A stretch of 64,000 nucleotides of DNA. Origin: Lepidostoma basale. Lineage: Eukaryota > Arthropoda > Insecta > Trichoptera > Lepidostomatidae. Positions within the stretch are counted from its first letter, which is position 1. Every line of letters starts with the position of its first letter. Below are positions 1,592 through 53,797 of this stretch, piece after piece. The DNA lies in assembly GCA_022606425.2 (NCBI GenBank), contig JAHDVF020000174.1, forward strand, positions 1 to 64,000, in the 5' to 3' direction. The notes below the pieces were generated by a model, which made no database searches, was not told the origin of the DNA, and saw nothing but the letters and a program-made list of their open reading frames with translations. The translations under genes were made by a program, and so were the position numbers.

Positions 1592-1636
1592 GTATCACTG
1601 AAGAAGGACTGGTTATCCGAAACATGTCTATGTAAC
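1592..1636 (+). ncRNA. Hammerhead ribozyme motif, family B1
   Basis: CTGAAGA 1598-1604; stem II GGAC/ATCC, one pair mutated; GAAAC 1619-1623; GTC 1626-1628. Stem III is ACAUGU. Confidence 0.62.
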
Positions 1637-1753
1637 TTTTTTTTTTAAATGTAAGTGCTGTATAAACAAAGTGTATAAAAAAAGAAAAATAGAAATAAAC
1701 TTAATAACATCTGTCAAAATTGACCATATTTGTAAACAATTTTATAATATTTT

Positions 1754-1802
1754 AAATATCTTGAGGAAACTCTGGGTAGTCAGAAACATGTTTGATATTT
1801 AA
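1754..1802 (+). ncRNA. Decayed hammerhead motif, family B2
   Basis: Core TTGAGGA, stem II damaged, GAAAC 1783-1787, GTT. Stem I AAATATC/GATATTT is still perfect. Confidence 0.5.
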
Positions 1803-1862
1803 TTTTAATTTGTTTAAAAATTGAGTGTTGTATAAAAAGTACATAAAAAATAAAAAAATATA

Positions 1863-2741
1863 AAATATTGACAATCGTTTAAATATTTAAAATGTGGACT
1901 TACTGTTCTTTACCCGCGATGTAGACAATTATTATTTTATATTCACCGATTGTTTACACTGGTGGCTGCCATGCCGCACCTATTAACCAATTCAAACGTT
2001 TCACCTGCAATTATAAGGAAATTAGAAAGAGACAACTTTTAATTGGAACCCATTGTCTATCGCCTCTGCCCGATTATTTTAGTTAGTTAGGGGTGCGTCA
2101 TATTCGACGCGTACTGGGTACGGTACCGGGAACCTGAGCGATAAATCTTCCCTTATCCGAATTGTTAATCATTTGAATTATAATTTTCTAATTATTCAAT
2201 ACAATGCTATCATTAAATGTTTTATTGTATACCGCAAAACCTGATATGAACCATCACAATTCCTAGAACAATTTATTCACAAGTTTTAGCAATTATAAAT
2301 AATTGTACAGGAAGTTAAAATCCTTGTTTACATAAAAGAATAATAAAAATATACGTTAAAATAAATAATTGCGTATAATCGTTGTTTACTTACTTATTAT
2401 TTAGTATCTTGAAAATGTTATTATTAACCACCCTACGTCTGTACCATTCTGCGCTATTCCGTATCACGTACGCGCTTGAGAAAAAGTAATGTACATAAAA
2501 TGTACAAACTGTTAGGGATACGCGCGTGTGCCAACAACACTCGAGTACAAGTCTTCATAAATATGATAGTTTTACAAGGGGCAGGCGAAGTGTGCGGTGG
2601 AGTATTTGACGTTTCGTAATTTAAAAAAAAGAAATTAAAATTTAATTATATTTCATTAAAACCTGTTTTTTTTTCACGTTTCTCGGAAAATAACCCAAAG
2701 GTAGGGCGGTTAATCAAAAATTATAAAACACGAATTATTTC
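1863..2741. other. No gene seen
   Basis: AT-rich non-coding sequence. A short TTAGTTAGTTAG at 2081 may be a LINE tail trace. CG-rich spots at 2100-2150 and 2450-2540 are not recognised. Confidence 0.6.
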
Positions 2742-2955
2742 ACAGTCCATTGTTTCGGCCGAAACACTATGATACTTTAACATTGTTTTTTGTATCACAA
2801 TTGTATTTTATTTTACACGACAGCAGTTTCATCAACCTATGTTGATGAAACATCCTTCACTGGATAATAAAGATATTATTTTAAAAAATAAATAATGAAA
2901 TGAGTATATTATTGTAACACCTGATGATGCCAACATGGGTTGGCAAAAAACACTC
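2742..2955. mobile_element. Family A ribozyme unit (inverted arms, decayed)
   Basis: Family A hallmarks: a start near AGTCCATTGTTTCGGCC, an internal TGTATCACAATTGTATTTTA block, and a hammerhead arm. The minus arm (about 2742-2860) keeps stem II, GAAAC and the GTCGTG cleavage region; the plus arm has CTGATGA at 2921-2927 and stem II, but GAAAC has become AAAAC. Confidence 0.6.
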
Positions 2956-3655: not shown

Positions 3656-3745
3656 AAAGAAAACGTCTGTTTTCTAGAAGTTTTATTAAATTTTATAGGA
3701 ATGAAATGTTTCACTTTTCTAAGGCATTATCAAATATTTATTATA
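3656..3745 (+). mobile_element. Family C single arm
   Basis: AAACGTCTGTTTTCTAGAAG followed by the ATGAAATGTTTCACTTTTCT and AAGGCATTATCAAAT segments. Confidence 0.55.
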
Positions 3746-4777: not shown

Positions 4778-4900
4778 AAGATAATGTAAAACTCCATAGT
4801 GAATAATTAATATGAATGAAAACGTCTGTTTTCTGGAAGTTTTATTATAGTTTATTGGAATGACATGTTTCACCTTTCTACAGCATTATCAAATATTAAA
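4778..4900 (+). mobile_element. Family C single arm
   Basis: From the ATGTAAAACTCCATAGTGAA terminus through GAAAACGTCTGTTTTC to GCATTATCAAAT. Confidence 0.58.
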
Positions 4901-4989
4901 CGTTTGACAATTTGATGTTTGAAATATCTATAATATGAGTCAAGGATTATGATTTGAACTTAATTAATACAAAATACATATTATTATAC

Positions 4990-6404: not shown

Positions 6405-6439
6405 AAAATGCCGTAGTAAGGGGAAAAATTTCATTACCA

Positions 6440-6585
6440 TAAAATTAAATAGTCCATTTTGCCGAAACACTACTTAATTTTTTTTTAAAACTAGTTGTTG
6501 TTTTATGTATCACAATTGTATTTTGAACCTGATGATGTCAACATAGGTTGACGAAACAGCTGTCGCGAAAAATAGAAAACGAAAA
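6440..6585 (+). mobile_element. Family A ribozyme unit
   Basis: Starts at the family A end (AATAGTCCATTTTGCCG) and runs through the TATCACAATTGTATTTT block to an intact hammerhead at its 3' side. Confidence 0.65.
6525..6568 (+). ncRNA. Hammerhead ribozyme motif, family A, intact core
   Basis: CTGATGA 6529-6535; stem II GTCAAC/GTTGAC with a short loop; GAAAC 6553-6557; AGCTGTC 6558-6564. Stem III is the palindrome ACAGCUGU, so it could pair between two molecules. Confidence 0.75.
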
Positions 6586-8350: not shown

Positions 8351-8458
8351 AAATAATAATAATTACTTCTATGTTCGTCATACTTTGTGCTGTAGATGTT
8401 TTATATTTTTTATATACTTTGTATACAACACTAACATTTAAAAAAAAAATAATTAAAT

Positions 8459-8502
8459 ATCAGACATGTTTCGGAAAACCCGGTCCTTCCTCAGTTATAT
8501 TA
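8459..8502 (-). ncRNA. Hammerhead ribozyme motif, family B2
   Basis: CTGAGGA (8494-8488), stem II GGA/TCC with weakened third and fourth pairs, GAAAC (8472-8468), GTC (8465-8463). Stem I pairs ATAT with ATAT after one mismatch. Confidence 0.65.
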
Positions 8503-8835
8503 TAAAGATATTTAAGAAATCGATCCTCCTTCAGAGGAACACTCCGGGCTACACAAATCATGCCCCCTCATAAACTAACAACCCACCAAATCACCTTCCA
8601 ACAATGTTCCCATCAGACGTAAGAGGAATAGCCACATCAGCTGAACCTCTGTAAGCTAGAATATCCAAGTCCAATTCCAAGTCCATTACAGATGTTATAA
8701 AGATATTATATCATTATAACATCTGTCAAAACTGATCATATTTGTAAACAATTTTATAATAATTGCGTAGATTTTCACGGTTGGCAGCAATATGTTTGAA
8801 GTGTTTTTGGGTAACACCGTGTGATAACTCCTTCT

Positions 8836-8880
8836 CGACCGACGTTTCGAAGATCGTTGCAGTCTCAATCTTCAAGGTAA
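8836..8880 (-). ncRNA. Decayed hammerhead motif, mini-PLE left arm
   Basis: Inverted partner. The core is TTGAAGA (C3 changed to T) and stem II has lost pairs; GAAAC and GTC remain. Probably inactive. Confidence 0.55.
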
Positions 8881-8885
8881 TGTCA

Positions 8886-8935
8886 TTACCCTGAAGATGG
8901 AGATTGCAACGATCTCCGAAACGTCGGTCGAGAAG
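8886..8935 (+). ncRNA. Hammerhead ribozyme motif, mini-PLE right arm
   Basis: Core CTGAAGA 8891-8897, stem II GGAGA/TCTCC, GAAAC 8918-8922, GTC 8923-8925. Same architecture as the PLE hammerhead. Confidence 0.72.
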
Positions 8936-9000
8936 GAGTTATCACACGGTGTTACCCAAAAACACATCAAACAATTTTATAATATTGTAAATAGCTTTAT

Positions 9001-9048
9001 AATATACCCTGAGGAAGGACCGGTTTGTCCGAAACATGTCTGATATAT
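9001..9048 (+). ncRNA. Hammerhead ribozyme motif, family B2, intact core
   Basis: CTGAGGA 9009-9015; stem II GGAC/GTCC; GAAAC 9031-9035; ATGTC 9036-9040. All core positions fit the consensus. Confidence 0.74.
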
Positions 9049-9110
9049 AATTAAATTATTTTTTTTATGTTTGTGTTATATACAAAGTATATAAAAAAGA
9101 AAAAATAATA

Positions 9111-10100: not shown

Positions 10101-10597
10101 AAAGATACGTATAAACTTAAGGCGTTAACATTTTGGAATATCAAAATTAATATTTTTTTTAACCGACATAAAACTTAACATAAAAACTTTTTTCGTTCCA
10201 TTTCGTTATCCCGATTATGAAGGTCGATTTATCTAAGAAAATCGAAAGTGGATAAACAATGATTTAATTAATTAAAAATTTATATACATTTAAATCTTGA
10301 AAACTGATGTAAAAAACTAACTTTACAATAACTAACCATCACGCCGTCTCTCTGAAGCGGTAGGCTGAAAAAATAAACTGCCACACTTTTTTTTCCTGAC
10401 ATACCTCTTGCTTCCTCAATATTCATACATCGTGTCATGCACACACGTCGATTTCTCCGACTCCTCCCTTGGCTAACATTCAATATTTGATTTAATAGTC
10501 CATTGTTTTGCCCGAAACACTATGAAACTTTAACATTATACACTGTTAAATTTTAAGAAATGTTTTATGTATCACATCATGTATTGTATTTTTGTTT

Positions 10598-10650
10598 TTC
10601 GCGTTTCGCTTTAGCTGTTTCGTCAACCTATGTTGACATCATCAGGTGTT
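10598..10650 (-). ncRNA. Hammerhead motif, family A, cleavage site lost
   Basis: CTGATGA (10645-10639), stem II and GAAAC (10621-10617) are intact, but the GTC triplet is replaced. Confidence 0.55.
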
Positions 10651-10665
10651 ACAATAATATTATTG

Positions 10666-10722
10666 TAACACCTGATGATGTCAACATAGGTGTTAACATA
10701 GGTTGACGAAACAGCTGTCGCG
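10666..10722 (+). ncRNA. Hammerhead ribozyme motif, family A, with duplicated stem-II loop
   Basis: CTGATGA 10672-10678; stem II GTCAAC/GTTGAC closed over a loop enlarged by a ~12-nt duplication; GAAAC 10708-10712; AGCTGTC 10713-10719. The core is intact. Confidence 0.7.
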
Positions 10723-10837
10723 TAAAACAAAAATAGAAATGTGATACATAAAACTTTTTTTTTTTATTATTTAACAGTGTATAATTTTTATTTTATTTTA
10801 TCATGCCACGTTTCCTCGGTCTTCCTCTATGATGTAA

Positions 10838-11165: not shown

Positions 11166-11274
11166 AAGAGAAGTTCCTCCTATGTTCCCCATTATTTATG
11201 TTGTAGATGTTTTATATATTTCTTTTTTACTTTGTATACAACACAAACTTTTTTTTTTAATTAAAATTAAATAT

Positions 11275-11322
11275 CAAACATGTTTCGGACTACCCAATCC
11301 TTCCTCATAAATATTATATAGA
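11275..11322 (-). ncRNA. Hammerhead motif, family B2, one core change
   Basis: Core ATGAGGA (C3 changed to A), stem II GGA/TCC, GAAAC, GTT. Partner of 11481-11527. Confidence 0.55.
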
Positions 11323-11480
11323 TATTTGAATTATTATAAAATTGTTTACAAATATGGTCAGTTTTATAACATAAATATTAAACAGAAACAGTTTTATAAT
11401 TTTTTATACTTAAATCTTTATAACATATGTCAAAACTGACCGTATTTGTAAACATTTTATAATATTTCAAATATCTTTAT

Positions 11481-11527
11481 AATATCACTGAGGAAGGACT
11501 GGGTAGTCGAAACACGTTTGATATTTA
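11481..11527 (+). ncRNA. Hammerhead ribozyme motif, family B2, best-formed example
   Basis: Stem I AATATCA/TGATATT is seven perfect pairs; CTGAGGA 11488-11494; stem II GACT/AGTC; GAAAC 11509-11513; cleavable GTT before TGATATT. All three helices and the core are present. Confidence 0.78.
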
Positions 11528-11545
11528 ATTTTTATTTTTGTTTAA

Positions 11546-15414: not shown

Positions 15415-15500
15415 ACTTGTTTTTACACCACCTTATTTTTGTCAGACCAACCAATTTTGCTCCATCCAGATCTTCATCAGGGTTTCAAAACTGACTGAAT
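15415..15500 (-). mobile_element. Hammerhead-like remnant, separate family
   Basis: Minus strand: CTGATGA (15480-15474) with outer stem I GTCAG/CTGAC and inner ACC/GGT. Stem II is mostly lost and GAAAC has become AAAAT. Confidence 0.45.
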
Positions 15501-18230: not shown

Positions 18231-18348
18231 TACAATCCACAATATATTAAAAATCACAACATGTCTCGGAAGATACCTCCATCTTTTACACCTAAGATGG
18301 AGGTATTCTCCGAAACATGTCGTGATTTTTTATATTTTGCGGATTGTG
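18231..18348. mobile_element. Family D ribozyme unit, near-perfect palindrome
   Basis: Arms 18231-18282 and 18290-18348 are inverted copies ending at ATCCACAATATAT-like sequence. The plus arm has CTAAGA (one base short of CTGAAGA), stem II GGAG/CTCC, GAAAC 18312-18316, GTC 18319-18321, and stem I CAC/GTG. The minus arm has GAGAC and a damaged core. Confidence 0.6.
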
Positions 18349-18427
18349 TATTAGTAGATGCTTTATTTCTCTTTTAATTTTTTATGTACTTTGTATATAC
18401 AACACTTACATTAAAAAAAAAATAATT

Positions 18428-18475
18428 ACATAGACATGTTTCGGACAACCAGTCCTTCTTCAGTGATACATATTA
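18428..18475 (-). ncRNA. Hammerhead ribozyme motif, family B1, intact core
   Basis: CTGAAGA (18463-18457); stem II GGAC/GTCC with a 5-nt loop; GAAAC (18442-18438); ATGTC. Stem I is poorly formed in this subfamily. Confidence 0.7.
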
Positions 18476-18554
18476 TAAATATACATAATGTTAATTTATG
18501 TTATTATAATACATGCTAATTTTTATTTTGTTCTCGTGTACAAAATCTTTGAAA

Positions 18555-18660
18555 AGACCAAGGGGATCAATATAGAAGAAAGAATGAAAAACACAAATAT
18601 AACAGCCAAAACAGGAGTGTCGGACATCATCGGAAGAGTTGCAGAGCTAATATTTTAAAT
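18555..18660 (+). repeat. Dispersed repeat with GTGTCGGACATCATCGGAAG
   Basis: GGGGATCAATATAGAAGAAA...AACAGCCAAAACAGGAGTGT, then the named motif. Further copies at 18835-18960 and (inverted) 22610-22715. Confidence 0.5.
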
Positions 18661-18680
18661 GTGTATCTTTATAATATGTA

Positions 18681-18722
18681 TCAGTGAAGAAGGACTGGTT
18701 GTCCAAAACATGTCTATGTAAT
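18681..18722 (+). ncRNA. Decayed hammerhead motif, family B1
   Basis: Core GTGAAGA, stem II GGAC/GTCC intact, AAAAC instead of GAAAC, GTC present. Confidence 0.5.
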
Positions 18723-18834
18723 TTTAAAAAAATGAATGTAAGTGTTGTATACACAAAGTACCTATATAAAAAAGAAAAAGAGAAAATTATTTTTTATTTC
18801 CAAATTGTAAGATATATGTTAATTTTTATTTTGT

Positions 18835-22408: not shown

Positions 22409-22575
22409 CTCGTATTATTTTAACACCTGATGATGTCAACATTGGTTGATGAAACAGCTGTCGCGCAAAATAAAACACAATTGTGATACAAAAAACAAAG
22501 TTTATTCATTAAGAATTTTAAAATGTTAAGGTATCATAGTGTTTCGGCTAAAACAATGAACCATTTAGTTTAGTT
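22405..22575 (+). mobile_element. Family A ribozyme unit
   Basis: Hammerhead arm followed by the ACAATTGTGATAC block and the terminal ATAGTGTTTCGGC...ACAATGAACC end. Confidence 0.6.
22421..22468 (+). ncRNA. Hammerhead ribozyme motif, family A, intact core
   Basis: CTGATGA 22427-22433; stem II GTCAAC/GGTTGAT (one G-U pair); GAAAC 22451-22455; AGCTGTC 22456-22462. Confidence 0.73.
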
Positions 22576-23900: not shown

Positions 23901-24104
23901 TGCGTCGTTTTGTAAAATCAATTACTCCAATGGCGCATTAGGAAAAGACTGACCGAACTATCATCATACTTAATACTAACATGGAGGCTATTCCACACCA
24001 ACGGACCCGCAACGCTGAAAGTACGCTGAAATACAAAATGTAATCAAAACTGCCATTGAGCAATGAGTTGAAAAGAATTTGGTGGATTATTTATTGTTTC
24101 TCTA

Positions 24105-24325
24105 ACAATGGTGTAAAACTCAAAATAAAATAATTAATATGATAAAAACGTTTGTCTTCTAGTTTTATTATATTTTAGATGGAATGACATGTTTCGCCCT
24201 TCTAAGGCATTGTGATATGACCATGACATTTGGTAATGCCTTAGAAAGGCGAAATATGTCATTCCATCTAAAATAAAATAAAACTCCTAGAAGACACAAG
24301 TTTTCATTCATATTAATTATTTGCT
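24105..24325. mobile_element. Family C element, full palindrome
   Basis: Best example: both arms present with the hairpin GCCTTAGAAAGGC, GAAAC or GAAAT, ATGTCATTCC and TTTTATT-rich arms, centred near 24222. Confidence 0.68.
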
Positions 24326-25062
24326 GGATATTGAGCATGAGACTGCGAAATAAGTTTCAAGATCTTCAGAGCAAGGATATATCCTCTCTTGATGTGATAA
24401 TTTATAGTCTTGTTTGTGATATGAGTAGATAAGTGAGTATATACATATGGTACATTCCCAATATCGTTAATGATCAATCTATATATTATATTTCAAACTC
24501 GTAGTAACTAATGTGTAGATATGAGAATTATGAAAATATCAAGTGTGGGCACGTACAAGGGATGGGAGAGTATTATTTACTAAGGGGAAGTATAACAAAT
24601 TGAGAATTCGGAGGAACTGTATCAACAATGTGTTATCAGCTGTCGGCTAGAGATATGTTCGGAATACACAATATAAAGGTACGCTCCCACATCCGTCTAA
24701 AGTCTCCACCAAAAGAACATTTTCGGAGAGGGCGAATATTGTATTTGATACAATATATTATATGTACGTACCTACGCCATACTTCACAATAAGATACGAA
24801 GAGATATCTACACCTACATCCAACCTATTATTTACGTTAGATACAATTATGTATAATATATTTTCATAGATTAAATGGATGTAGAAGATGGAGAGTAAAT
24901 AAAGCTGAAGTTATTATAGAATTATGAAAATCTTTTACTAATCTTGATTTGAAGTAAATCTACACAAGCTTAAAGCTTCTAACGATTATTTATATATACT
25001 CGTATATTGAAATCTAACGGTGTCGATCATAATTTGTATGTTATTTAATTTATGATTTTCAA
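24326..25062. other. No gene seen
   Basis: Unique-looking non-coding DNA. Confidence 0.55.
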
Positions 25063-26474: not shown

Positions 26475-26687
26475 ACGACTGAAAACGTCCGTTTTCTTGA
26501 ATATTTATTTAATTTTGTAGGAACGGCATATTTCGCCTTACTAAGTCATTAATAAACGATTTTATTGTTTCTTGAACAATAAATACGTTTGATTAATAAG
26601 TGTCATATATTTAAATAGTCCGTTGTTTTTGCCGAAACACTATGATACGAGTACTTTAACATTATAAACTGCCAAATAAAAAAACTT

Positions 26688-26730
26688 TGAAGATGTCAAC
26701 ATAGGTTGATGAAACAGCTGTCGCGTAAAA
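26688..26730 (+). ncRNA. Hammerhead motif, family A dimer, first copy
   Basis: Core TTGAAGA (C3 changed to T), stem II GTCAAC/GTTGAT, GAAAC 26711-26715, AGCTGTC to 26722. One core change. Confidence 0.6.
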
Positions 26731-26812
26731 TAAAAAATACAATTGTGATACAAAAACAAAAGTTATTTAATTTAACAGTTTAAAAAAAAACTTATGTGTA
26801 TTTAATTGTACC

Positions 26813-26860
26813 TAACACCTGATGATGTCAACATAGGTTGACGAAACAGCTGTTGCGAAA
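26813..26860 (+). ncRNA. Hammerhead ribozyme motif, family A dimer, second copy
   Basis: CTGATGA 26819-26825; stem II GTCAAC/GTTGAC; GAAAC 26843-26847; AGCTGTT to 26854. GUU is an allowed NUH triplet. Confidence 0.72.
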
Positions 26861-27025
26861 AATAAAAATATAATTGTGATATTGTACATTAAACAAAGTA
26901 TTTTAATTTAACAGTTTATGACATATATTTGATAATGCCACTTCAAACTCAAGAAAAAACTTCAAGAAAACAGACGTTTTCATTAGTATTAATTATTTAA
27001 TATGGAGATTTACATCATTGTTCAA

Positions 27026-27581
27026 GAAACAATAAATATTATGACCGACCTATTAAAATCGTTTAATTAATATGAAATTTTACAAATCATAGACATTCTT
27101 TATAATTTTTGTTTAAAATACTGACCCCATATTAGAAAATTTATATAAAATCAATGGACATTTGCATCTTAAAAATACGAAAACAAATTATAATTTTCTC
27201 GATTTTTTTTTGTTCTTAGAAAGGCTCATTATGACAGAAGAATTTCTTGATCAAACAAGAGTGACGCACTAAAAGAGAACCACCGCAGTCCCTTTCCCCT
27301 CGTCACATCTGACACGATCCTTCTTGCCTCCTTCACACTTCATGCTTCGCGCCGAGAGATGCAGTCATTCCGTCTTCACTAGCTTTTCAACATCACTCGT
27401 TTGTGTTTGGTTTACTCATCTGTGGACTTAATGCAGTCTAAATGTTAAGGATACAAAAAGATTATCAAAATTTGAAATATGTTTTTAAATTATTTTTAGT
27501 ATTTTAAATATAATAATAATATAATAAATTGGATAATTTATAAAGCGCCATTTTTATGAATTACTCATCTCAAGAGCCATT
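27026..27581. other. No gene seen
   Basis: AT-rich with a more balanced stretch (27240-27400); nothing recognised. Confidence 0.5.
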
Positions 27582-27780
27582 GTTTTAGCCGAAACACTAT
27601 GAATCTCCAACATTATAAACTGTTAAATTATAAAACTCTGTTTTTATGTATCACAAGTTTAATTTTTATTTCACGACAGCTGTTTCGTCAACCTCTGTTT
27701 ACATCATCAAGTGTCACAAAAATACTGTGACACATACGGAGATGTCAACATAGGTTGACGAAACAGCTGTCACGAAAAAT
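27582..27780. mobile_element. Family A ribozyme unit, inverted pair
   Basis: The minus hammerhead (27670-27725) has core TTGATGA, GAAAC and GTC; the plus hammerhead (27735-27775) keeps stem II, GAAAC and GTC but has a damaged core (ACGGAGA). The left end is the family A CCATTGTTTTAGCCGAAAC start. Confidence 0.6.
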
Positions 27781-27789
27781 CTTCTTATT

Positions 27790-28085
27790 ATTCTTTTTCC
27801 TTGTTGTAGACCTATGTGGTCTGTTCTCCAGAGTGTCGCTCCAACTGTGAGGTAGATTCCCAGCTGTCCTTCCATCTTTTATGAGGTCTTCCACGAGGTC
27901 GAGTCCCATGAGGCTGATTATGCAATGCAATAAAGGGGAGTCTGGTGGTGTCCATTCTTTGTTCATGACCGTACCAGTACCTTTTTCGCTGTCTGCTCCA
28001 TCTTATAATATCCTCAACCTCACATATCTCTCTTATTCTGATGTTCCTCACGCGATCTCTCAGTGTCTTGGCTGCAAAATATAAG
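27790..28085 (-). mobile_element. LINE C-terminal remnant (GRPHKRWKDSW type)
   Basis: Minus frame: AKTLRDRVRNIRIREICEVE, RQRKRYWYGHEQRMDTTRLP, RPRGRPHKRWKDSW. Intact for about 95 codons. Confidence 0.68.
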
Positions 28086-29180: not shown

Positions 29181-29532
29181 TTATCAAATGACAAATTTTC
29201 GTGATTTTCCAACCTTTATGTGTATTTGTTCCTATGTCAATTTGAATAATTTATTTGATACAATATAATTTTGGAATTCTTGCTGGAGTTGAGTTAGGTA
29301 CCTAATTATTTTAATTAAAAGAACGGTTAGTTTCTATTTATAGGAAAAAATATTAAAGTTGGAAAATATAATAATACAAAAAAATAATAATAATCATAAT
29401 AATAAAAAAAACATTAATTGGAAGGAACAATTACACATAATATAGAGTCAAAAACAATGAAATATAATAAATTTAATTTGTTTTATGTTCGTTGTGTTTT
29501 TGGGTAACACCGTGTGATTTGGTAAACTCCTT

Positions 29533-29580
29533 CTCGACCGACGTTTCGGAGATCGTTGCAGTCTCCATCTTCAGGGTAAT
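29533..29580 (-). ncRNA. Hammerhead ribozyme motif in the PLE 3' region (inverted left copy)
   Basis: Same motif as in the right copy: core CTGAAGA (29574-29568), stem II GGAGA/TCTCC, GAAAC (29547-29543), then GTC. All core bases are present. Confidence 0.75.
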
Positions 29581-29730
29581 GAATGTGATATGTGTTGTGT
29601 CTGCTAAGGTACTTCACCGTTGTACCGTGTCGCCGGCAGTGTGTACGTGTGAGACAAAGGTTCCCAGAAATAGCTTGGCACAGGGGGCATTCCGAACCGG
29701 TATGTCGCCGGCAGTGGGTTATTCCCCGAA

Positions 29731-30748
29731 TTAGCTAATTACAAGGGGCCCATTCCCGGGTGGTGTGTCACCGGGCGGCGCGCGCCTCAGTCGGGCGGGT
29801 TGTATATTTTGTAGTACCGGATACCACGCGGGTTTAAGGCGGAGGCCGTCGTCTCTGTTGATGTTTTGCGGGTGTTGATAAATTTCAATTGCCTCGCTGA
29901 TGAGACGTGCACGTTGGCTCCTCGGTCTGTCTAGTACCGAGGGCTCAAAATTGAAACGATGACCGGTGTCCACGAAGTGTTCGGCGAGAGCAGATTTGTC
30001 GGGATAGCCGAGTCTGCAAGCACTTTCGTGTTCACTGGTTCGCTTTTTTATCGTGCGGGCTGTTTGTCCCACGTATACTTTGTCACAGCCGAGGCAATCC
30101 AATTTATACACTCCGTCCGTCTCTAGAGGGTATTTGTCTTTTGCAGAGCGGATAACATGTCCGACCTTAGTTGTTGCCCCGTATACAGTTTTAATCTCGT
30201 GCCTCCGCAGGATCTTGGATATCTTGTCCGTGACTCCTTTTATGTATGGCAAAAAGGCCAAGGATTTTGTTGGTATCTCCTCTTTGTCTCCGCGTGGGGC
30301 CTGTGCTCTTTTAATAACACGTTGGATATTAAGATTGCTATATCCGTTGCACTGCAGAGCCTCAGTGAGGGTTCGCAGTTCACCCTTCACCGAGGACTCC
30401 TCGCTAATGCGGATAGCTCTAGTTACCAACGTGTTAATCAGGCCCCTCTTCTGTGCGGGATGATGGTTGGAGTCAGCGTGCAAGTATCGCTGCGTGTGAG
30501 AAGGTTTCCTGTATACGGTGTGCCCCAGCCTCCCATCTTTCTTCCTCCTTACTTCTACATCAAGGAATGGCAGGATGCCGCTCTTTTCAATTTCGACGGT
30601 AAAATTAATGAGAGGGTGCAAATTATTTAAGTGCGCCAAGAAGACGTCCAACTCGTTCCTCCCGTGTGGCCAGATAGCAAAGACATCATCAACGTATCTA
30701 AGCCACACTTTGGGAGTTAGGGACGCCGTGTCTAGTGCCGTCTCTTCA
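29731..30748 (-). pseudogene. Inverted, 5'-truncated copy of the PLE reverse transcriptase/GIY-YIG gene
   Basis: This minus-strand frame repeats the last 337 or so residues of the neighbouring plus-strand PLE protein, from just before the YVDD motif through the GIY-YIG domain to the same stop. The first residues of the open frame (MSNFA) come from across the junction. It lacks RT motifs A and B and cannot encode a working transcriptase. It is part of the same insertion. Confidence 0.92.
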
Positions 30749-33049
30749 GCGAAGTTACTCACCAGTTTGGCCTTTCTCCTCAGATGTAGAGATCATTCGA
30801 TTACCCCCAACTTCATTCGCATCAAGCACCACATCAAAACGTTCAAGGCAACAAAGGTTTTGAAAAATGCCGAAGGAGCCTTGCTACGGGAGAGGATTCA
30901 CGACACAAGAAGACAAATCAACGATCTCAGCACACAGCTCTACAAATTACACCTTCGTCTAAGCGCGACCCTATCGCGAGATGATTGGAACAAGGTTGAC
31001 CGAATAACCGCCAATCAAGCTGCCCGGAGTAAATCAGCTTTTGAGATCACTCATATAAGAAAATTTGACAGCTTATATAAGACCCAAACACATGTCAAAA
31101 AGGGGCTTGAGACTTCGAAAGTTGTTATCAACTTATCAAGCCATACATTGAGTGAAGAGGCTACGTCCATCCTCGCTAAAGGGCTCAACTATGCGATTGC
31201 TCCGAAAAAGATTCCTGTGAAAAATATTATATGTGGAGTAGAAACAGCCATATGGAAGTGTCCGGTAGCTACTGCCGAGGAAATAAGGCAAGATACCAGT
31301 ATCATTCTAAGGAAAGCAAAGCCGCCACCCGCAAATACAACATACAAAGAACGCGCCGCACTTCGCGAACTCCGAAATAATGACAAAATAGTGGTTCTCC
31401 CGGCAGACAAAGGCAACGCCACTGTCATTCTCGATATGACTAAATATGTTGACAAGATGCGTTCTCTGCTTGACACTTCTACATACAAGAGGCTTAAACA
31501 TAACCCCACTAACAAGATCGATAGGAAGACACGTGAGCTGGTAAAGGCCTCTAGCATCGACAAGGAATTTCACTACAAACTTTTTGTGCGAGCAGCGAGA
31601 ACACCGGCTATTTACGGCCTGCCGAAAATTCACAAAAACGACGTACCTCTGCGCCCAATTGTCAGTACAATCGGTTCACCTACTTATCATCTCGCTCAGC
31701 ACTTATCTACTCTACTCCAGCGCCACATCGGGAAGACAAGCTCATTCGTCAGAGACTCCGTACATTTCATTGAAATGATAAACGAAATCAATGTTAGCAG
31801 TGATGACATTTTAGTCAGTTTTGACGTGGAGTCTCTCTTTACAAACGTGCCGATGGATGACTCGCTGTCGATGGTTGCGGAGATCTTTGACGACGACATA
31901 TGTGAGCTATTTAGGCACTGCCTTAAAAGCGGCTACTTCTCCTTCATGGGAGAGATTTATGAGCAGGTGGAGGGCGTCGCCATGGGATCCCCACTATCTC
32001 CAGTAATAGCCAATTTTTTCATGGAGAAATTTGAAGAGACGGCACTAGACACGGCGTCCCTAACTCCCAAAGTGTGGCTTAGATACGTTGATGATGTCTT
32101 TGCTATCTGGCCACACGGGAGGAACGAGTTGGACGTCTTCTTGGCGCACTTAAATAATTTGCACCCTCTCATTAATTTTACCGTCGAAATTGAAAAGAGC
32201 GGCATCCTGCCATTCCTTGATGTAGAAGTAAGGAGGAAGAAAGATGGGAGGCTGGGGCACACCGTATACAGGAAACCTTCTCACACGCAGCGATACTTGC
32301 ACGCTGACTCCAACCATCATCCCGCGCAGAAGAGGGGCCTGATTAACACGTTGGTAACTAGAGCTATCCGCATTAGCGAGGAGTCCTCCGTGAAGGGTGA
32401 ACTGCGAACCCTCACTGAGGCTCTGCAGTGCAACGGATATAGCAATCTTAATATCCAACGTGTTATTAAAAGAGCACAGGCCCCACGCGGAGACAAAGAG
32501 GAGATACCAACAAAATCCTTGGCCTTTTTGCCATACATAAAAGGAGTCACGGACAAGATATCCAAGATCCTGCGGAGGCACGAGATTAAAACTGTATACG
32601 GAGCAACAACTAAGGTCGGACATGTTATCCGCTCTGCAAAAGACAAATACCCTCTAGAGACGGACGGAGTGTATAAATTGGATTGCCTCGGCTGTGACAA
32701 AGTATACGTGGGACAAACAGCCCGCACGATAAAAAAGCGAACCAGTGAACACGAAAGTGCTTGCAGACTCGGCTATCCCGACAAATCTGCTCTCGCCGAA
32801 CACTTCGTGGACACCGGTCATCGTTTCAATTTTGAGCCCTCGGTACTAGACAGACCGAGGAGCCAACGTGCACGTCTCATCAGCGAGGCAATTGAAATTT
32901 ATCAACACCCGCAAAACATCAACAGAGACGACGGCCTCCGCCTTAAACCCGCGTGGTATCCGGTACTACAAAATATACAACCCGCCCGACTGAGGCGCGC
33001 GCCGCCCGGTGACACACCACCCGGGAATGGGCCCCTTGTAATTAGCTAA
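30749..33049 (+). CDS. Penelope-like polyprotein: reverse transcriptase + GIY-YIG endonuclease, 5' end missing
   Basis: The open frame gives 766 codons of genuine PLE protein to the stop. N-terminal PLE region: the CRD-x-ITPNF motif near the start, then helices with several basic residues. RT domain: motif A has SFDVESLFTNVP with Asp at about 31823; motif B is GVAMGSPLSPVIANFF; motif C is LRYVDDVFAIW (Asp-Asp at about 32090-32095); then the FLDVEV and YRKPSHTQRYLHADSNHH blocks typical of PLEs. C-terminal GIY-YIG nuclease: GVYKLDC, two paired Cys, KVYVGQTART, then KKRTSEHE. The RT copies RNA into DNA at a nick presumably made by the GIY-YIG domain. No in-frame ATG remains near the 5' end: upstream of 30749 the frame runs for 77 codons into antisense of the inverted copy, so those residues are not part of the protein and the native start is lost. 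Otherwise intact, with no stops. Belongs to the Penelope type of arthropods. Confidence 0.93.
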   Translation, partial: AKLLTSLAFLLRCRDHSITPNFIRIKHHIKTFKATKVLKNAEGALLRERIHDTRRQINDLSTQLYKLHLRLSATLSRDDWNKVDRITANQAARSKSAFEITHIRKFDSLYKTQTHVKKGLETSKVVINLSSHTLSEEATSILAKGLNYAIAPKKIPVKNIICGVETAIWKCPVATAEEIRQDTSIILRKAKPPPANTTYKERAALRELRNNDKIVVLPADKGNATVILDMTKYVDKMRSLLDTSTYKRLKHNPTNKIDRKTRELVKASSIDKEFHYKLFVRAARTPAIYGLPKIHKNDVPLRPIVSTIGSPTYHLAQHLSTLLQRHIGKTSSFVRDSVHFIEMINEINVSSDDILVSFDVESLFTNVPMDDSLSMVAEIFDDDICELFRHCLKSGYFSFMGEIYEQVEGVAMGSPLSPVIANFFMEKFEETALDTASLTPKVWLRYVDDVFAIWPHGRNELDVFLAHLNNLHPLINFTVEIEKSGILPFLDVEVRRKKDGRLGHTVYRKPSHTQRYLHADSNHHPAQKRGLINTLVTRAIRISEESSVKGELRTLTEALQCNGYSNLNIQRVIKRAQAPRGDKEEIPTKSLAFLPYIKGVTDKISKILRRHEIKTVYGATTKVGHVIRSAKDKYPLETDGVYKLDCLGCDKVYVGQTARTIKKRTSEHESACRLGYPDKSALAEHFVDTGHRFNFEPSVLDRPRSQRARLISEAIEIYQHPQNINRDDGLRLKPAWYPVLQNIQPARLRRAPPGDTPPGNGPLVIS

Positions 33050-33199
33050 TTCGGGGAATAACCCACTGCCGGCGACATACCGCTCCGGAATGCCCCCTGT
33101 GCCAAGCTATTTCTGGGAACCTTTGTCTCACACGTACACACTGCCGGCGACACGGTACAACGGTGAAGTACCTTAGCAGACACAACACATATCACATTC

Positions 33200-33250
33200 A
33201 TTACCCTGAAGATGGAGACTGCAACGATCTCCGAAACGTCGGTCGAGAAG
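33200..33250 (+). ncRNA. Hammerhead ribozyme motif in the PLE 3' region (right copy)
   Basis: Core CTGAAGA 33206-33212; stem II GGAGA/TCTCC with a 9-nt loop; GAAAC 33233-33237; cleavage triplet GTC 33238-33240. Stem III is the palindrome ACGU. Stem I begins ACC/GGU. PLEs are known to carry type I hammerheads with minimal stem III. Confidence 0.75.
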
Positions 33251-33527
33251 GAGTTTACCAAATCACACCGTGTTACCCAAAAACACAACGAACATATTGC
33301 TGCCAACCGTGAAAATCTACGCAATTACTTAATTTGTTTTTATTTTATTTAGCGTTTAAATAAAAGACTTTACCTGCATTTTGTGTTATGGATTCACATT
33401 TAAATAACATTGTATTTTCTTTCAACTTTTTTTATTGCTGTATGAATAAATTGTTTTTCAAAAGTTATTCAAATTTTCATCTCAAAGGCGTTATCAAAAT
33501 GGAATTTCATAATTACAATGTACATTT

Positions 33528-34559: not shown

Positions 34560-34905
34560 TATTTTAATTCTCATTTTCTTTTTTATATACTTTGTAGATA
34601 CAACACTTATATTAAAAAAATAATATAATATTATTATATTATACATTGACATGTTTCGGACAACCGTAATATGTAATAATATGTATCACTGAAGAAGGAC
34701 AGGTTGTCCGGAACATGTCTATGTATTTTTATTTATTTAATTATGATCAACCATATTCAGTTTCCAGTTTGCATCTTCGTCTCTATTGAGATACAATTTA
34801 ATTTTTTTAAATTTTTTTTTTTAAGTGTTGTATATATAATACAAAGTGTATAAAAAAGAAAAAGATAAATAAATCATCATAACAACACAAAGTATAGGCG
34901 AATAT
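34560..34905. mobile_element. Family B1 unit, inverted pair, broken by other repeats
   Basis: The minus arm 34575-34670 is truncated in its hammerhead. The plus arm has CTGAAGA 34689-34695, stem II GGAC/GTCC, GGAAC (one change) and GTC. A 52-bp piece of another repeat (34743-34794) interrupts the plus arm. Confidence 0.6.
34743..34794. repeat. Dispersed repeat (family G) piece
   Basis: GATCAACCATATTCAGTTTC through TCTATTGAGATACAATT is the same as 52313-52364. Confidence 0.5.
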
Positions 34906-35585: not shown

Positions 35586-35949
35586 AATTTAACGGAATGA
35601 GAAGATAAGAATGGAGGATTCACTACCCAGGAATGTTCCTGCCCGCTTCCCTCCGGACTGGGACCTCCGGTGATAATTATTTGAAGTTTTACCACCTACG
35701 TGTAAAATGGTCCATTCATTCTTTCCTCTATTAGCTTATTGCCGCTACTTCGATTGCCTTCAACAGGTAGATGCACTCTTGGTCATGCACCTGTGCCTCA
35801 ATACCTACCGACTTATAATGCAGTGTTCGTATATACTACCATCTTTAAGCTTTGTACTAATCTATTGTAAGATTTAGAAAACAAAAATATTCTTATCATT
35901 TCTCCTTTTCTTTTTTATATATTTTGTATATACAACACTTTTTTTTTTA

Positions 35950-35998
35950 ATTACATAGACATGTTTCGGACAAACAGTCCTTCTTCAGTAAAGATATA
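35950..35998 (-). ncRNA. Hammerhead ribozyme motif, family B1, intact core
   Basis: CTGAAGA (35988-35982); stem II GGAC/GTCC; GAAAC (35967-35963); ATGTC. Consensus in all core positions. Confidence 0.72.
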
Positions 35999-36282
35999 TA
36001 TATTTAAAAAATAATATAAAATTGTTTTTTAATAAAGATATTGGAGTTGAAATTGTGCATGTTAATAATAAAAATATAACTTTGTGCAATTTCGAAATTT
36101 TATAAATTAAAAAAGCAATTTAAAATAAAGAAAATATTAAAAATAATCAAATAAATTGAACGTCAAGTCCAATCTTTGATTTATTTCCTTTGTTGTAAGT
36201 AATTACCTGAATATCTTTATGAACATTAAAATATCATTTTAAATTTTAAATTGAATAATAATATTTGGTAAAAACAAACAAA

Positions 36283-38147: not shown

Positions 38148-38342
38148 AAACTGTTAAATCAAATAACATTGTTTATTTTACGCGACAGCTGTTTCATCAA
38201 CCTATGTCAACATAGGTTGATGAAACAGCTGTCGCGTAAAATAAAATACAATTGTGATACAAAAAACAATGTTATTTAATTTAACAGTTTAAAATATTAA
38301 GGTATCATAGTGTTTCGGCCAAAACAATGAACTATTTAATTT
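38148..38342. mobile_element. Family A palindrome without catalytic core
   Basis: Near-perfect palindrome centred near 38209: each arm has GAAAC, stem II and ACAGCTGTCGCG, but the CTGATGA segments between the arms are lost. It sits inside the AT-rich satellite 38090-38545. Confidence 0.65.
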
Positions 38343-43729: not shown

Positions 43730-43960
43730 ATTTTTTTATGAATAATGACACTTTTCTCCATTTTAGAGATTATTTTTCTCGACATATTTCGAAGGCTTCA
43801 TCATCGGGAGAACGATATAAACAGTTTATATCGTTCTCCCGATGATGAAGGTGTAAAGCCTTCATACATGTCGAGAAAAATAAACTGAAAAGTGGAAAAA
43901 ACAGTATTTTAATTCATACAAATTTGTTACTATGGAATCCCACAGATTTAACGCATTAAG
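43730..43960. mobile_element. Family E ribozyme unit, inverted pair
   Basis: Two arms meet at the palindrome 43811-43836. The minus hammerhead has core CCGATGA (43807-43801), stem II GAAG/CTTC, GAAAT (43790-43786), GTC, and perfect stem I TTCTC/GAGAA. The plus arm has the same CCGATGA core (43839-43845), a longer stem II, lost GAAAC, GTC and the same stem I. The U4-to-C change in both arms suggests the family spread in this form. Confidence 0.6.
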
Positions 43961-47027: not shown

Positions 47028-47952
47028 TTTTAATTTGACAAAATCGGAAAATTTTAAATGTTAATTATTCGGTTGCCTTAACAATGTTTTAAAACTCCAT
47101 TTAATTTTACAAATAGCTTACAATTAATCAATAAGTTTTGATACAGATATTTTGCTTTATAAGAGAATAGGCAGCTGACTAATCCCTTCGCTCTCAACTA
47201 TTTTAGCTGCAAAATTAAATCATTCATCGCACATGGAGTGTATCAAATATATTTTTCATTTTACCAATTTATAATACACAGTACTGAAATAAATCCCTCC
47301 CTAAAATGGGTTACCCTTGGTGAGAGGCACGAAAGCTATTTACTTGGAAATAAATATTATAAATAAAATTTTAATACTTTATAAAGCCACAGAACCGGCA
47401 AAATTAATATTATTATAATAAACTTTGGCTGTTTAAATATTTACTAATAAACCTCTCGACAGGAGTTACAAAGCCAACTGTAAAATGTTTCCGACAAAGC
47501 GAAATGTTTATCCGAAGGACTCGCAGACAATCGCTTGAGGTTTCGCTGGCTCTCACAGATGCTGGCGGCAGCTTACCGAAACTTTCAAACAGATTTGGCT
47601 GTATAATTAAAATTGAACAAATACCTGTTCCCTTCGATTCGGGGATCCTTTCCCACAGAAAATCATAAAGTTAACTGCAGGAGCAAAAGTTTTATTCGAA
47701 TCGTCTACATTTAAAATCTAAATTCAGAAATCCTTATTACAAAACTGTACAGTACGTACGTATATGCCATATATTATATTATAACTTTAAACCAGGGAAA
47801 AAAAATATACATGATAAATTTAAAAGGAGAATCTGAACTAACATTTTAAAAATAAATTTTGTTACCTATATGAAATATTATGGTAGAAGTTCATTGTAAA
47901 TAATAAAAATAAAATTTAAAAAAGTTAAAAATCTTTTTTAAATGTATATTTA
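47028..47952. other. No gene seen
   Basis: 47440-47650 is less AT-rich and looks unique (CAGATGCTGGCGGCAGC); a conserved non-coding element is possible. Confidence 0.4.
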
Positions 47953-48085
47953 GTTCAAATCCGCTAATGTTTGTGTCTTCGACCGGTTTCACCAGCTCGC
48001 TGCTATCTTCTCATTCGCCATTATCAGAAGACGGCAGCGAGCTTCCGAAACCGGTCGAAAACACAAACATTTGTGGATTTTAACT
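47953..48085. mobile_element. Family F-like palindrome with two decayed hammerheads
   Basis: Inverted arms 47953-48015 and 48024-48085. Plus: CAGAAGA (U4 to A), stem II with one mismatch, GAAAC 48047-48051, CGGTC. Minus: GAGAAGA, GAAAC, CGGTC. Stem III is ACCGGU, as in the 53.7-kb copy. Confidence 0.6.
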
Positions 48086-48179
48086 AATTTTTTTTTAATA
48101 TTATACAAGATTTTTTTTAAATATACCTACATTTTTAAAAGATTTTTTTACCAAAAAAAGATTTTTTTTTCATTATTAA

Positions 48180-48904: not shown

Positions 48905-49075
48905 TTAATATCCAATTTATTTATTACATATTTTTACATAAAAAAATTCAAAACATGTTCCGGATGTGACCTCCATCCTCAGTTGTAAAATTTAAATATT
49001 TGTTTTTCTCTATTGAAAAATTGGTAATTTTAAGGATTTGTCATAATATGTTGTTCACTTTATAAGGTTTTATAT
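48905..49075 (-). mobile_element. Family D ribozyme remnant
   Basis: Minus strand: CTGAGGA (48982-48976), stem II GGA/TCC, GGAAC, AUGUU. GAAAC has one change. Confidence 0.45.
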
Positions 49076-50580: not shown

Positions 50581-51720
50581 TAGTAGTGTTGCTATTGTAA
50601 ATGCAACATGGCGCCTTACGATATTTTGTAGAGGCTTATTTTGCAGCAAAACATAGCTCATCATAGCCCTACTACCTTTTTGAACCTCACAAAACCTCTC
50701 AGAATCTTTACGATATGAAAAAATAGTAAAACTGAATTTTAAAATTGTATTATAACTAAAATGATTTATTGATATGTATTTTTGGGTATGCATAACAAGT
50801 AAAATCTGAAGTGTTGTTTCTACAGTATATTCCATTATTGGGTAAAATTATTACTTTGTTTTATGTGTTTGAATGACTCAGATGCCAAAATGTATTTATG
50901 TATTTTTATTACCGTACTAAGCAATTCATAAACAATGATCGCAGTAAAGTCAGTGGGTACTTGTAATAAACACTTTTAACACACTGCTAATAACAATACC
51001 ACAAAATGTAAAAAGAACTTCTTGTTACATTAGACAATAATAAATATATAATAAATTCAAATATCATTTCAAAAGCTCTTGAAAATAATTGTTAAGACTT
51101 AAATTTGCGGTAGGTAAGAATACTGTTTCAACGAGAAATGGTTCGCGTTCATTGTTTTCGTCCGGAGCTTTCACAATTCTATTGATTTTATGGTGTCACA
51201 AATTAGTTAAAATCGCAACTGAAATACCCTCATTGAATAATGCATTACCTTCTGGTTTTATGGCACACCGAAAGCTGTCTTGTCGTTGTCACATTTACAA
51301 CAGGAAACCTGAAAAGATGAGCTTTGGGAAACCGCCGACATTGTCACGCTGTCAACTCGGTTTCAATTAATTTATTGGCCCTTCTACCGACCGAACGAGA
51401 TACGCATTCTTCATAGTATTAGGAGCTTCTCGAACGGAGAACGGTAATGACTCGTAAGAAGTAATATTTTATAAGTTACACATTTTTTATGGTTTTATTT
51501 CACTAGTAAATCATGTCTGTTCTAATATACTACAGAGATTTAATTTAAGATATTTTTAATGTCATACTAATGGTTTATTGTATATACACAATACAAATGA
51601 TATGTACATTTTTCATTGTACATTATACATCTGTACATTACTAGGAATGTTGAATACGCTTGGAATGTGTCTATAGGAACGAACCGTTATGGTTCATAAT
51701 AGGTAGAATATTTAAAAACG
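50581..51720. other. No gene seen
   Basis: Unrecognised 90- and 93-codon frames (50563 minus, 51089 plus) without supporting features. Confidence 0.45.
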
Positions 51721-52800
51721 AACTATCTAACTAACTAACCGATGAACTGCAACACTATTCTACCCTGACAGCTCTCGCGCCTCTTCTACATTCACACGTG
51801 ACATACACGCTCGTCGATTGTTCCTACTTCGGACATGGCCGCCTCTCAGTGATTAATTAATTTGGTCATGCCATGCCTTCCTTGGCCTTCATCGATTTCT
51901 TTTTCCATTCACACTAATTGTATATATTGTACCTTCGGTAAGACAAGGGCACAATTGTACGTTTTTTTAATTTTTCATTAGGTGAATTGAAGAATAATAT
52001 CGTTACAAATCTATGCCTAACTTCACATGTCAGTTTCAACATGCCATCTATGTAGATTTTGATTACATATGTTAATCTTTTTAAGGAAGGATTATTTAGA
52101 TTAATCTTAAAAAGATTAACATATGTAATCAAAATCTACATAGATGTTGAAACTGACATGTGAAGTAAGGCATAGATTTGTAACATATATACAACCTCCA
52201 AAAATTTGTCTTACATGGTCATAAAGAAATAGGTGGAATGGGGAATGTTGTAATTACATAAAGCGTGCGCTTAACCCAACCAATGATAGGTCATAAGTCC
52301 TGTAAACACCTTGATCAACCATATTCAGTTTCCAGTTTGCATCTTCGTCTCTATTGAGATACAATTAAGTTTCATGAATTAATCACCCACCGTGGGAGAA
52401 ATTTAGTATTCGTATACAAGTATAAGTATACATTCACAAAAAATAATATCGTGTTATTCTGGCTATATTGATCATACACTATCGCCCTCTGGTAAAATTA
52501 GACTGAACTTAATGAGCGATTTTGTTCCTCCAGATAAAGGGATGTTTTTTAAAATACATTGGCATACTTTACTCATTTTGAGAATTTTTAACAATTATGT
52601 CCTTGTCTTACCGAAGGAGCGATATCTGTTTAACCCTTCTTCCCTCGTCCATTAATTCCATATGCCCAAATCATAGTGACAATTTTTTTATTTTATTTAG
52701 GACGCATTCATCCGCCTAACATTATTTTCTTACTTCATCATTAAATATTCTGTGATGTATCATATTTCTGAACATTCTTCTAAGTGACTTTATTTCTAGG
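51721..52800 (-). mobile_element. TTAG-type RTE fragment split by a 686-bp element
   Basis: Left part 51721-51931 (CTAACTAACTAACCG, GCTCGTCGATTGTTCC, CATGCCATGCCTTCCTTGG); right part 52618-52800 (TTTAACCCTTCTTCC, GAACATTCTTCTAAGTGAC). Confidence 0.62.
51932..52617. mobile_element. 686-bp inverted-repeat element with internal foldback
   Basis: Terminal inverted repeats of about 27 bp (51932-51958; 52591-52617): CCTTCGGTAAGACAAGG ... CCTTGTCTTACCGAAGG. Inside, 52002-52090 and 52104-52185 form a second, near-perfect inverted repeat of 80 bp or more with a spacer of about 15 bp. A family G segment (52230-52370) follows. No coding. Confidence 0.75.
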
Positions 52801-53214
52801 GAAATGAAAAATATTTATTTAAAAAGAGCGATTTATCGTAAATTCTATGAAAAGCACTTACCTTTTTCATTCTTAGAAGTTTTTTACAAATAGACATGCC
52901 ATCAACGAAATTATGTAAAAATATATCAATATACAACAGAAACTATTTGATTTTAGATGGTTTAATAATGTAGAGAAATAGTGCTTTCCATAAAATACAT
53001 TTGAATGAACAAATGTGTGTAAAAAGCGTCTATACATGTAGGTATATTCAAATGAACTGTCGCACAAAAAATCTTTTACTAAAGATTTTTTCTTAGTATC
53101 CATCATACTTTGGTAATAACATCTAGATGTATGTAATGTGTGATCGTATAATTTACTTAAAGGGAAAGACATTTTTTAAGATATTTGTTTATAAATTAAA
53201 CAAAAGTAGAACAA

Positions 53215-53400
53215 TGTTTTTTTTTTACTTTGTACACAACACCTACTTTATTATAAAATAAAATTAAAAAAAAAAACAATCTGGTTTCGGACACAGAAGC
53301 TCTTCATCAGTGATATAAATAGATATGATATTATATAAATATTATAAATACATACTTTTTTAATTCATGGATGTGGTCAATTTTGACAGATATTTAAATG
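53215..53400 (-). mobile_element. Family B-like single arm with altered hammerhead
   Basis: Minus strand: CTGATGA (53310-53304) and GAAAC (53288-53284) are intact; the stem-II sequence is diverged and the cleavage triplet unclear. The flank TTTGTACACAACACC matches the family B end. Confidence 0.5.
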
Positions 53401-53746
53401 ATTTTTTTCGGAACGTTTATGCTTTTATTATGAAATATTTTGAATTACACAATTAAGTGTAAAAAGTAAAAAAATAAATGGTTCATTGAATCCGCAACAC
53501 AGAGAGAAAAAAAATAATAAACAAGTTTGTTAAAAATTAAAATTGTAGATAAGTTTTGATTTCAGGTATGGTGATTAAAAAAACCCCTCTAAGTTACCCA
53601 AATTGGAGATATTCTAAGCATGTACTAGGTAAATATTAAAATATATAATATTATATTATAATTACTATTATTATTATTTTATAATTTATTTAAATGTGGC
53701 TTTTTGTGAATAAATTATCTCAAGTGAAAATTGCTTTGTTATGGGA

Positions 53747-53797
53747 GTTGCATTGACTGACGAAGCTTCGGCAGGAGCGAAACCGGTTGGTTGTAAC
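53747..53797 (+). ncRNA. Hammerhead ribozyme motif, family F, single copy with intact core
   Basis: Outer stem I GTTGCA (53747-53752) pairs with TGTAAC (53792-53797) across an internal loop; core CTGACGA 53757-53763; stem II GCTTC/GGAGC with a 4-nt loop; GAAAC 53779-53783; stem III palindrome ACCGGU, then U as the cleavage base. No inverted partner nearby. Confidence 0.7.

Follow-up and report, generated by a model that had tools for sequence, protein, structure and literature searches.

Gene-less repeats with minimal hammerhead motifs and a Penelope-like insertion layout in a 64-kb stretch of caddisfly DNA

Here we show that a 64-kb stretch of Lepidostoma basale DNA (contig JAHDVF020000174.1, positions 1 to 64,000; "the window", to which all counts below refer) contains several families of short repeats that carry a hammerhead motif and are built like the one coding Penelope-like element (PLE) present between them. 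The observation itself is sound and its kind is known, and the repeats are better termed Penelope-type mini-elements, made of pseudo-long terminal repeats (pLTRs), than unrelated active ribozymes. The reading we favour, and consider likely from their sequences, is that they are Penelope mini-elements of the pLTR type that lack genes, carry minimal and for the most part decayed type I hammerheads, and would have been spread by a Penelope protein.

An initial annotation had listed 14 hammerhead sites. Both strands of the window were scanned with a descriptor consisting of CUGANGA, a spacer of 0-1 bases, a stem II of at least 3 bp, GAAA, a stem III of at least 2 bp and U-H, and 200 order-3 Markov sequences served as controls. 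The scan returned 13 strict sites against a control mean of 0.21 and a maximum of 2, and a stricter version with a stem III of 3 bp returned 10 against 0.27 (60 control sequences). The strict sites are located on the plus strand at 1598, 6529, 8891, 9009, 10672, 22427, 26819, 33206 and 53757, and on the minus strand at 8494, 18463, 29574 and 35988 (first core base); CUGANGA, GAAA and NUH are present in type I order, together with stem II, at all of them. Thus, 13 of the 14 sites listed initially, in which the minus-strand coordinates correspond to the first core base minus 3, were recovered far above the control level, including 53757 with the GUU triplet ascribed to it, and our profile searches agreed that decayed copies are numerous. 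The remaining site, 11488, was missed by the strict scan because its stem II is one base short, and yet it is the sole site matched by an Rfam hammerhead model.

Whereas the order of the motif parts is as had been described, their spacing is not: at all 13 strict sites A9 is separated from stem II by a single additional base (A or U), and the canonical spacing was found at none. An extra base after A9 is tolerated by some natural hammerheads. Furthermore, stem III is a perfect, loopless palindrome at 13 of 13 strict sites (ACGU in the family that we named P, ACAUGU in A, ACAGCUGU in B and ACCGGU in E), so that pairing would be possible only between two RNA copies. The letters of stem II vary by family while its pairing is kept.

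The initial description of the window as a ribozyme landscape, if taken to mean active ribozymes, did not hold up. Firstly, searching the whole window against Rfam gave no match at gathering score, and none of the 15 matches with an E-value up to 10 was a hammerhead; this is largely the outcome that would speak against genuine hammerheads according to the initial annotation. When four short stretches were searched, a single hammerhead match was obtained (RF00163 at 11488, 15.5 bits versus a gathering score of 34). Secondly, helix I is weak. Contiguous pairs beside the core were counted in 23 copies, including all 13 strict sites; apart from 11488, which has seven, the tested copies have 0-3, and at least three were present in eight of the 23 (four P copies, 11488, and one copy each of E, B and the type named X). 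The four P copies all have three pairs (ACC/GGU), six of seven B copies have one and the seventh has three, five copies of subfamily A1 have 1-2 and never three or more, and the four remaining copies have 0-1; among 378 cross-family control pairs, 5.3% reached three. The helix I duplex energies did not clearly separate the families (A1, -1.4 to -3.1 kcal/mol; B, -0.8 to -6.2; P, -1.8 to -3.4) from these controls (mean -1.75 kcal/mol). Thirdly, free folding of five segments recovered the hammerhead layout, i.e., helix I plus stem II, for P only; stem II alone was recovered for B and A1, stem II with the core paired away for E, and neither helix for A2 (11488). The core motif holds and helix I is absent or weak in most copies; taking these together with the Rfam and folding results, we conclude, at the level of sequence, that the sites are hammerhead-derived and that many copies seem incapable of self-cleavage.

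The compensatory stem changes invoked in the initial annotation stood between families, in which stems II and III differ and stay complementary, but not within family F. In 16 F copies, the correct stem register pairs 79% of the cells versus 33-44% after sliding, while no measure of covariation exceeds that of shuffled sets, i.e., the pair changes are at shuffle level. F reads UUGAUAA at the core position of CUGANGA: position 3 (C3) is U or A in all 19 copies with letters there (two further copies are gapped), and position 8 (G8) is A in 18 of 19. As an observation in its own right, the F core is mostly U3-A8, which can still pair, and may thus represent a natural exchange of a core pair, e.g., at 3734 (-) and 54948 (+).

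Profile searches with E-values up to 0.01 gave 17 A, 17 B, 21 F and 4 P matches; the B copy at 10672 (+) is counted twice owing to an internal duplication, which lies, in part, inside its loop II. The A profile also catches 18294, 19564, 48989 and 53317, which were set aside by eye as X type or strays. Family E has two matches: the motif at 53732..53813 (+; core 53757), which has no pairs beside the core and only a distal helix I, and a relative at 15429..15482 (-; E-value 0.015) with ACC/GGU beside the core and G12 changed to A. Further head-to-head pairs were recognised and named X and G. In families P, B and F and at two X loci, an ATG in the motif is separated from the GAA by a number of nucleotides divisible by three (15, 18 or 21). 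In A1 the distance is 15 with AAG replacing the ATG, the A family having no ATG in its motif, and in A2 and E it is 16. The frames opened by this ATG stop early in the common forms of B (MST-stop) and F (MP-stop); in the B copy at 22433 the frame stays open for 17 codons. The initial claim that several repeat families carry hammerheads is thus upheld, whereas no support was obtained for calling the families unrelated: the extra base and the palindromic stem III are common to all 13 strict sites, the head-to-head layout to A, B, F and P, and the in-frame ATG to several families, and together they resemble one Penelope-type class.

The only element with a Penelope coding match is located at 29.7-33.0 kb, within a head-to-head insertion at 29484..33328. 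Its inverted arms (29484-30748 on the minus and 32032-33296 on the plus strand) are 1265 nt long and 100% complementary, and it is flanked by TTAATTTGTTT, an 11 bp duplication with three extra bases on one side. The coding part of the plus copy lies between the arms and within the right arm, the first part of the open frame at 30500..33049 (+) falling in the left arm. The assignment to Penelope reverse transcriptases (RTs) is based on RVT_1 (Pfam) and on the last 749 aa, which are 49% identical to an Anolis Penelope protein; a GIY-YIG domain was not reported by the Pfam scan, and GVYKL...YVGQT was seen by eye at the C-terminus. Both arms contain a P hammerhead motif (33198..33255, +, core 33206, 3' of the frame; 29525..29582, -, core 29574). 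The P motif reads CTGAAG-ATG-GAG...TCC-GAA-ACG-TC, and its ATG, at 33212, overlaps A9-U-G; consequently, the additional U that follows A9 is the second base of a start codon. This ATG opens the frame METATISETSVEKEF, and the P frame is METATISETSV. The predicted cut (C17) falls 26 nt after the ATG in the P family only. Among the 120 listed of 1167 relatives found, five have M-x6-ETS near the N-terminus with the same spacing as the window frame, the Anolis protein being one of them. The wider pattern M-x(4-8)-ET[SALVC] matched six of these 120 versus 0.53 in shuffles (maximum 3, 300 shuffles), although the sixth match is not N-terminal.

The second P insertion, at 8762..8973, consists of two pLTR pieces placed head-to-head (arms 8793-8882 and 8884-8973), and sits in an A element with AAACAATTTTATAATA, 16 letters, as flanking repeat. 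Its target duplication measures 11-16 bp, since the first five letters, AAACA, are also the element's own end. This layout is widespread. Counting same-family matches at most 400 nt apart in A, B, F and P (thus leaving the PLE arms and the X and G pairs outside), we found 22 neighbouring pairs, of which 16 are head-to-head, four direct and two tail-to-tail; one of the direct pairs is the B copy at 10672 split into two matches, and one of the head-to-head pairs, that of F at 26467/26937, is separated by a nested B element. The chance that 16 or more of the 18 inverted pairs share one orientation is about 0.0007, assuming independence. A family-blind search for palindromes with a short spacer found 18, 13 of which were assigned by eye to hammerhead families; the other five, at 19.5, 42.0, 43.8, 52.0 and 55.1 kb, lie outside them. 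Such frequent head-to-head pairing points to one common copying machinery.

A second shared trait is a tail that extends past the shared 3' end on exactly one arm, which is the case in four of four B pairs, the P pair (8762-8790, left arm only), the PLE (33297-33325, right end only), two of eight F pairs (E-values 0.0017 and 0.019) and one of three A pairs, whereas the tail search found tails on both arms in none of the 16 head-to-head pairs. B tails are also present at four B copies besides these pairs, and an A tail at one arm of an interrupted A element at about 8.4-9.1 kb. Target duplications complete the comparison. The B pair at 10.5 kb, compared by eye with a copy of its target repeat near 61446, has an imperfect one of about 9 bp, and when the flanks of 30 elements were searched for empty sites, counterparts emerged only for P at 8.8 kb (in A) and B at 26.6 kb (inside the F pair); in the former, the two flanks overlap extensively with each other on the A counterpart at 1702-1804. 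In summary by family, P and the PLE have head-to-head pLTRs, a one-sided tail and a target duplication; B has the first two and one imperfect duplication; and A and F have the head-to-head layout and tails in part of the pairs, with no duplication read.

Based on these features, we propose that the insertions consist of the pLTR region alone, that is, the hammerhead plus about 80-135 nt downstream. The motif would correspond to the minimal Penelope form, with type I order, one additional base following A9 (the U of the start codon of the open reading frame, ORF, in the coding element) and a loopless palindromic stem III that might pair only as an RNA dimer. A Penelope protein would nick both target strands and copy the mini-element RNA, beginning at either of two internal priming sites. 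The two antisense cDNAs would then meet just upstream of the hammerhead, which would generate a head-to-head pair in which no more than one arm has a tail, together with a target duplication. The ends of the F copies may be informative in this respect: of the 20 F matches, 11 have their first base 4-8 nt upstream of the core, and in none is it 5 nt or less from the cut site, which rules out, for F, that copies start at the ribozyme cut, and suggests that the copied RNAs were uncut at their own 5' hammerhead.

Several observations weigh against the proposal that a Penelope protein spread these mini-elements. Two tail-to-tail pairs are present, although one of them consists of an X match and an A match. 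Each tail query was cut from an arm that it matches, which leaves the missing tail of the opposite arm as the only independent observation, and the tails of the A and F pairs at 18.5, 24.2 and 35.2 kb were recognised only by eye. Target duplications were read in only three cases, one of them imperfect; the two empty-site counterparts are few for 30 elements, and on the other A counterpart of the P pair (11412-11530) the flanks overlap by only a base or two. Finally, all the evidence is at the sequence level and comes from a single window.

These findings can be read in other ways. The families may be metazoan non-LTR retrozymes, i.e., tandem 130-165 bp monomers whose multimers are cut by the hammerheads, the resulting units then undergoing circularisation and retrotransposition. 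Such an origin would fit the direct dimers seen in A (163 nt) and in B (132 nt), the AT-richness of the repeats and a size near the 150-450 bp given in sections of PMC7229834. However, just the four direct pairs mentioned above, including the split single copy, have the expected arrangement, most pairs being inverted; A1 has no helix I, six of seven B copies have a mismatched one, and the F copies do not start at the cut. We consider this origin improbable. Even further from what we would expect is that the repeats are palindromic DNA transposons of the miniature inverted-repeat type with hairpins that resemble hammerheads by chance. Inverted repeats with short spacers and a high AT content are indeed typical of what is seen here, but the core letters are constant across families with differing stems, the coding Penelope element has an identical layout, and the one-sided tail and unequal ends show that the arms are not terminal inverted repeats; this explanation is very improbable.

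A, B and F could also be solo pLTRs derived from several autonomous Penelope families that have their coding copies at other places. The P pair at 8.8 kb is exactly such a derivative of the coding element in the window, and the ATG-to-GAA distance of P, B and F, and that of two X loci, is still divisible by three. On the other hand, the common B and F frames stop early and A lacks the ATG, and a tblastn search of the window with its own frame plus 60 relatives (E-value 1e-3) gave no Penelope coding match outside 29.7-33.0 kb, and hence none near any A, B or F copy. We regard the existence of such coding masters as possible, although somewhat doubtful. It should be noted that the solo pLTR alternative does not exclude a spread of gene-less mini-elements by a Penelope protein, because the machinery is the same and only the existence of coding masters differs.

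Among the copies seen, helix I is missing from A1, and F has neither C3 nor G8; self-cleavage was therefore probably dispensable for the spread of both. A more far-reaching and rather unlikely extension would be that the A1 and F hammerhead is no longer a ribozyme, and that its hairpin, GAAAC and palindrome are kept as a recognition element for the Penelope protein or as an RNA-pairing element. If this were true, a catalytic RNA would have turned into a packaging or dimerisation signal, and gene-less mini-elements would parasitise Penelope.

Minimal type I hammerheads of Penelope/Poseidon elements with pLTRs have reportedly been described by Cervera and de la Pena in 2014 and by Lunse in 2017. 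The window differs from such elements in that it holds no coding part for any of the families A, B, F, X and G, and in the lack of C3 and G8 in F and of helix I in A1. Relative to Rfam RF00163 (Hammerhead_1), the core letters and strand order are the same, whereas the extra base after A9, the loopless stem III, the weak helix I and the sub-gathering scores are different. According to sections of PMC7761336, minimal type I hammerheads occur in PLEs and, by the thousands, dispersed in animal genomes. In the Anolis Penelope (PAc), as described in parts of PMC11167929, the ORF begins at the start of stem II so that C3 and G8 precede the start codon, and the cut lies 26 bp downstream of the start codon. 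The same sections state that the Anolis protein cuts the two target strands and extends each of them, prefers AT-rich DNA and has two adjacent internal RT start sites on the RNA, and that in vitro insertion is undiminished with hammerhead mutants. The window resembles PAc in having, in the P family, a hammerhead over the ORF start and in its AT-rich targets. It likewise resembles the Penelope of the rotifer Adineta, for which parts of PMC3846280 describe head-to-head pLTRs, a one-sided tail, junction palindromes and duplications of 8-10 bp that are lacking in some copies: pLTRs are head-to-head here, one of them carries a tail, and target duplications are short. The word "hammerhead" does not appear in the text of PMC3846280.

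Sections of PMC7229834 report more than 6000 hammerheads in 16 families in Acropora and propose PLEs as retrozyme helpers, based on shared hammerheads, tandem copies and co-existence. Like metazoan non-LTR retrozymes, the repeats of the window are short, low in GC and gene-less, have type I hammerheads and some direct dimers, and form many families in one genome; unlike them, most copies are head-to-head rather than tandem, and helix I is weak or absent. "Short, nonautonomous Penelope elements" are mentioned for Heliconius in a section of PMC6685494, the text of which contains neither "hammerhead" nor "ribozyme"; these lepidopteran elements are likewise short and gene-less, a likeness by description and not by sequence. 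We found no printed statement on a head-to-head layout of gene-less hammerhead repeats, subscription papers having been little covered. Gene-less hammerhead repeats with a Penelope layout beside a Penelope element that is built alike would provide a different line of evidence for the suspected link between Penelope and retrozymes, and A1 and F provide concrete families for spread without a complete ribozyme, which bears on the purpose of the Penelope hammerhead.

The individual copies are distributed as follows. In family A, a direct dimer is located at 1589..1804 (+; start-to-start distance 163 nt), the motif at 1598 being followed by a decayed second copy. The A2 motifs at 8451..8500 (-; core 8494) and 9000..9052 (+; core 9009) lie on either side of the P mini-element, and 11488, with its 7-bp helix I and the sole Hammerhead_1 match, belongs to the A2 head-to-head pair at 11265..11530. 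A1 is represented by the pairs at 18424..18723 (motif 18463 on the minus strand, with a mutated partner near 18684 on the plus strand) and 34642..34728 (the left arm begins within stem II and the right arm contains the 34689 copy), and by the motif at 35949..36001 (-; core 35988). Head-to-head B pairs are present at 2747..2948 (decayed), 10492..10790 (including 10672 on the plus strand, and inserted in a repeat) and 27577..27792, each with the tail on the left arm, and at 38171..38329, where the arms are joined inside stem II and the tail is on the right arm. Other B copies comprise a motif at 6527..6575 (+; core 6529), a copy with a tail at 22423..22558 (+; core 22427) and the element nested in the F pair at 26620..26946, which has direct B copies (start-to-start distance 132 nt; motif 26819) and a tail piece on the minus strand at 26620-26671. 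Among the F pairs of the palindrome search, that at 24088..24344 has the longest arms; the pair at 54830..55039 has its tail on the left arm and that at 62604..62784 on the right arm (the match with E-value 0.019). Identified by eye were the X pair with hammerhead-like arms at 18232..18347 and the G pair with GAAACCGGUC arms at 47950..48087, which coincide with sub-threshold Rfam matches to a microRNA hairpin and a microRNA, respectively; a single X-type motif at 48947..48989 (-) reads CTGAGGA...GGAACATGTT.

With regard to its surroundings, the window is insect nuclear DNA, containing a Toll-type receptor and a mariner-type transposase in addition to the Penelope element. The Toll-type frame (56662-60696, -) is uninterrupted over 1344 aa, and is 60% identical to its best named relative, Plutella xylostella toll-like receptor 6, and 86% identical to another protein. 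The mariner-type transposase (40321-40929, -) was identified by Pfam, and a second frame extending to 41400 was assigned by eye; many repeat fragments were taken, also by eye, for pieces of long interspersed nuclear elements. A search of viral contigs with two DNA patterns and the PLE profile found no relatives, and three weak matches to bacterial RTs were left out of consideration. The perfect palindromes at 43796-43850 (27-nt arms) and 52045-52146 (41-nt arms), in which no hammerhead was seen, gave sub-threshold Rfam matches to rox1 and mir-582. Similarly, the sub-threshold microRNA matches at 10623-10694, 18248-18329, 38169-38251 and 47936-48098 are head-to-head palindromes of hammerhead families, and such microRNA-like matches may constitute a trap for small-RNA annotation.

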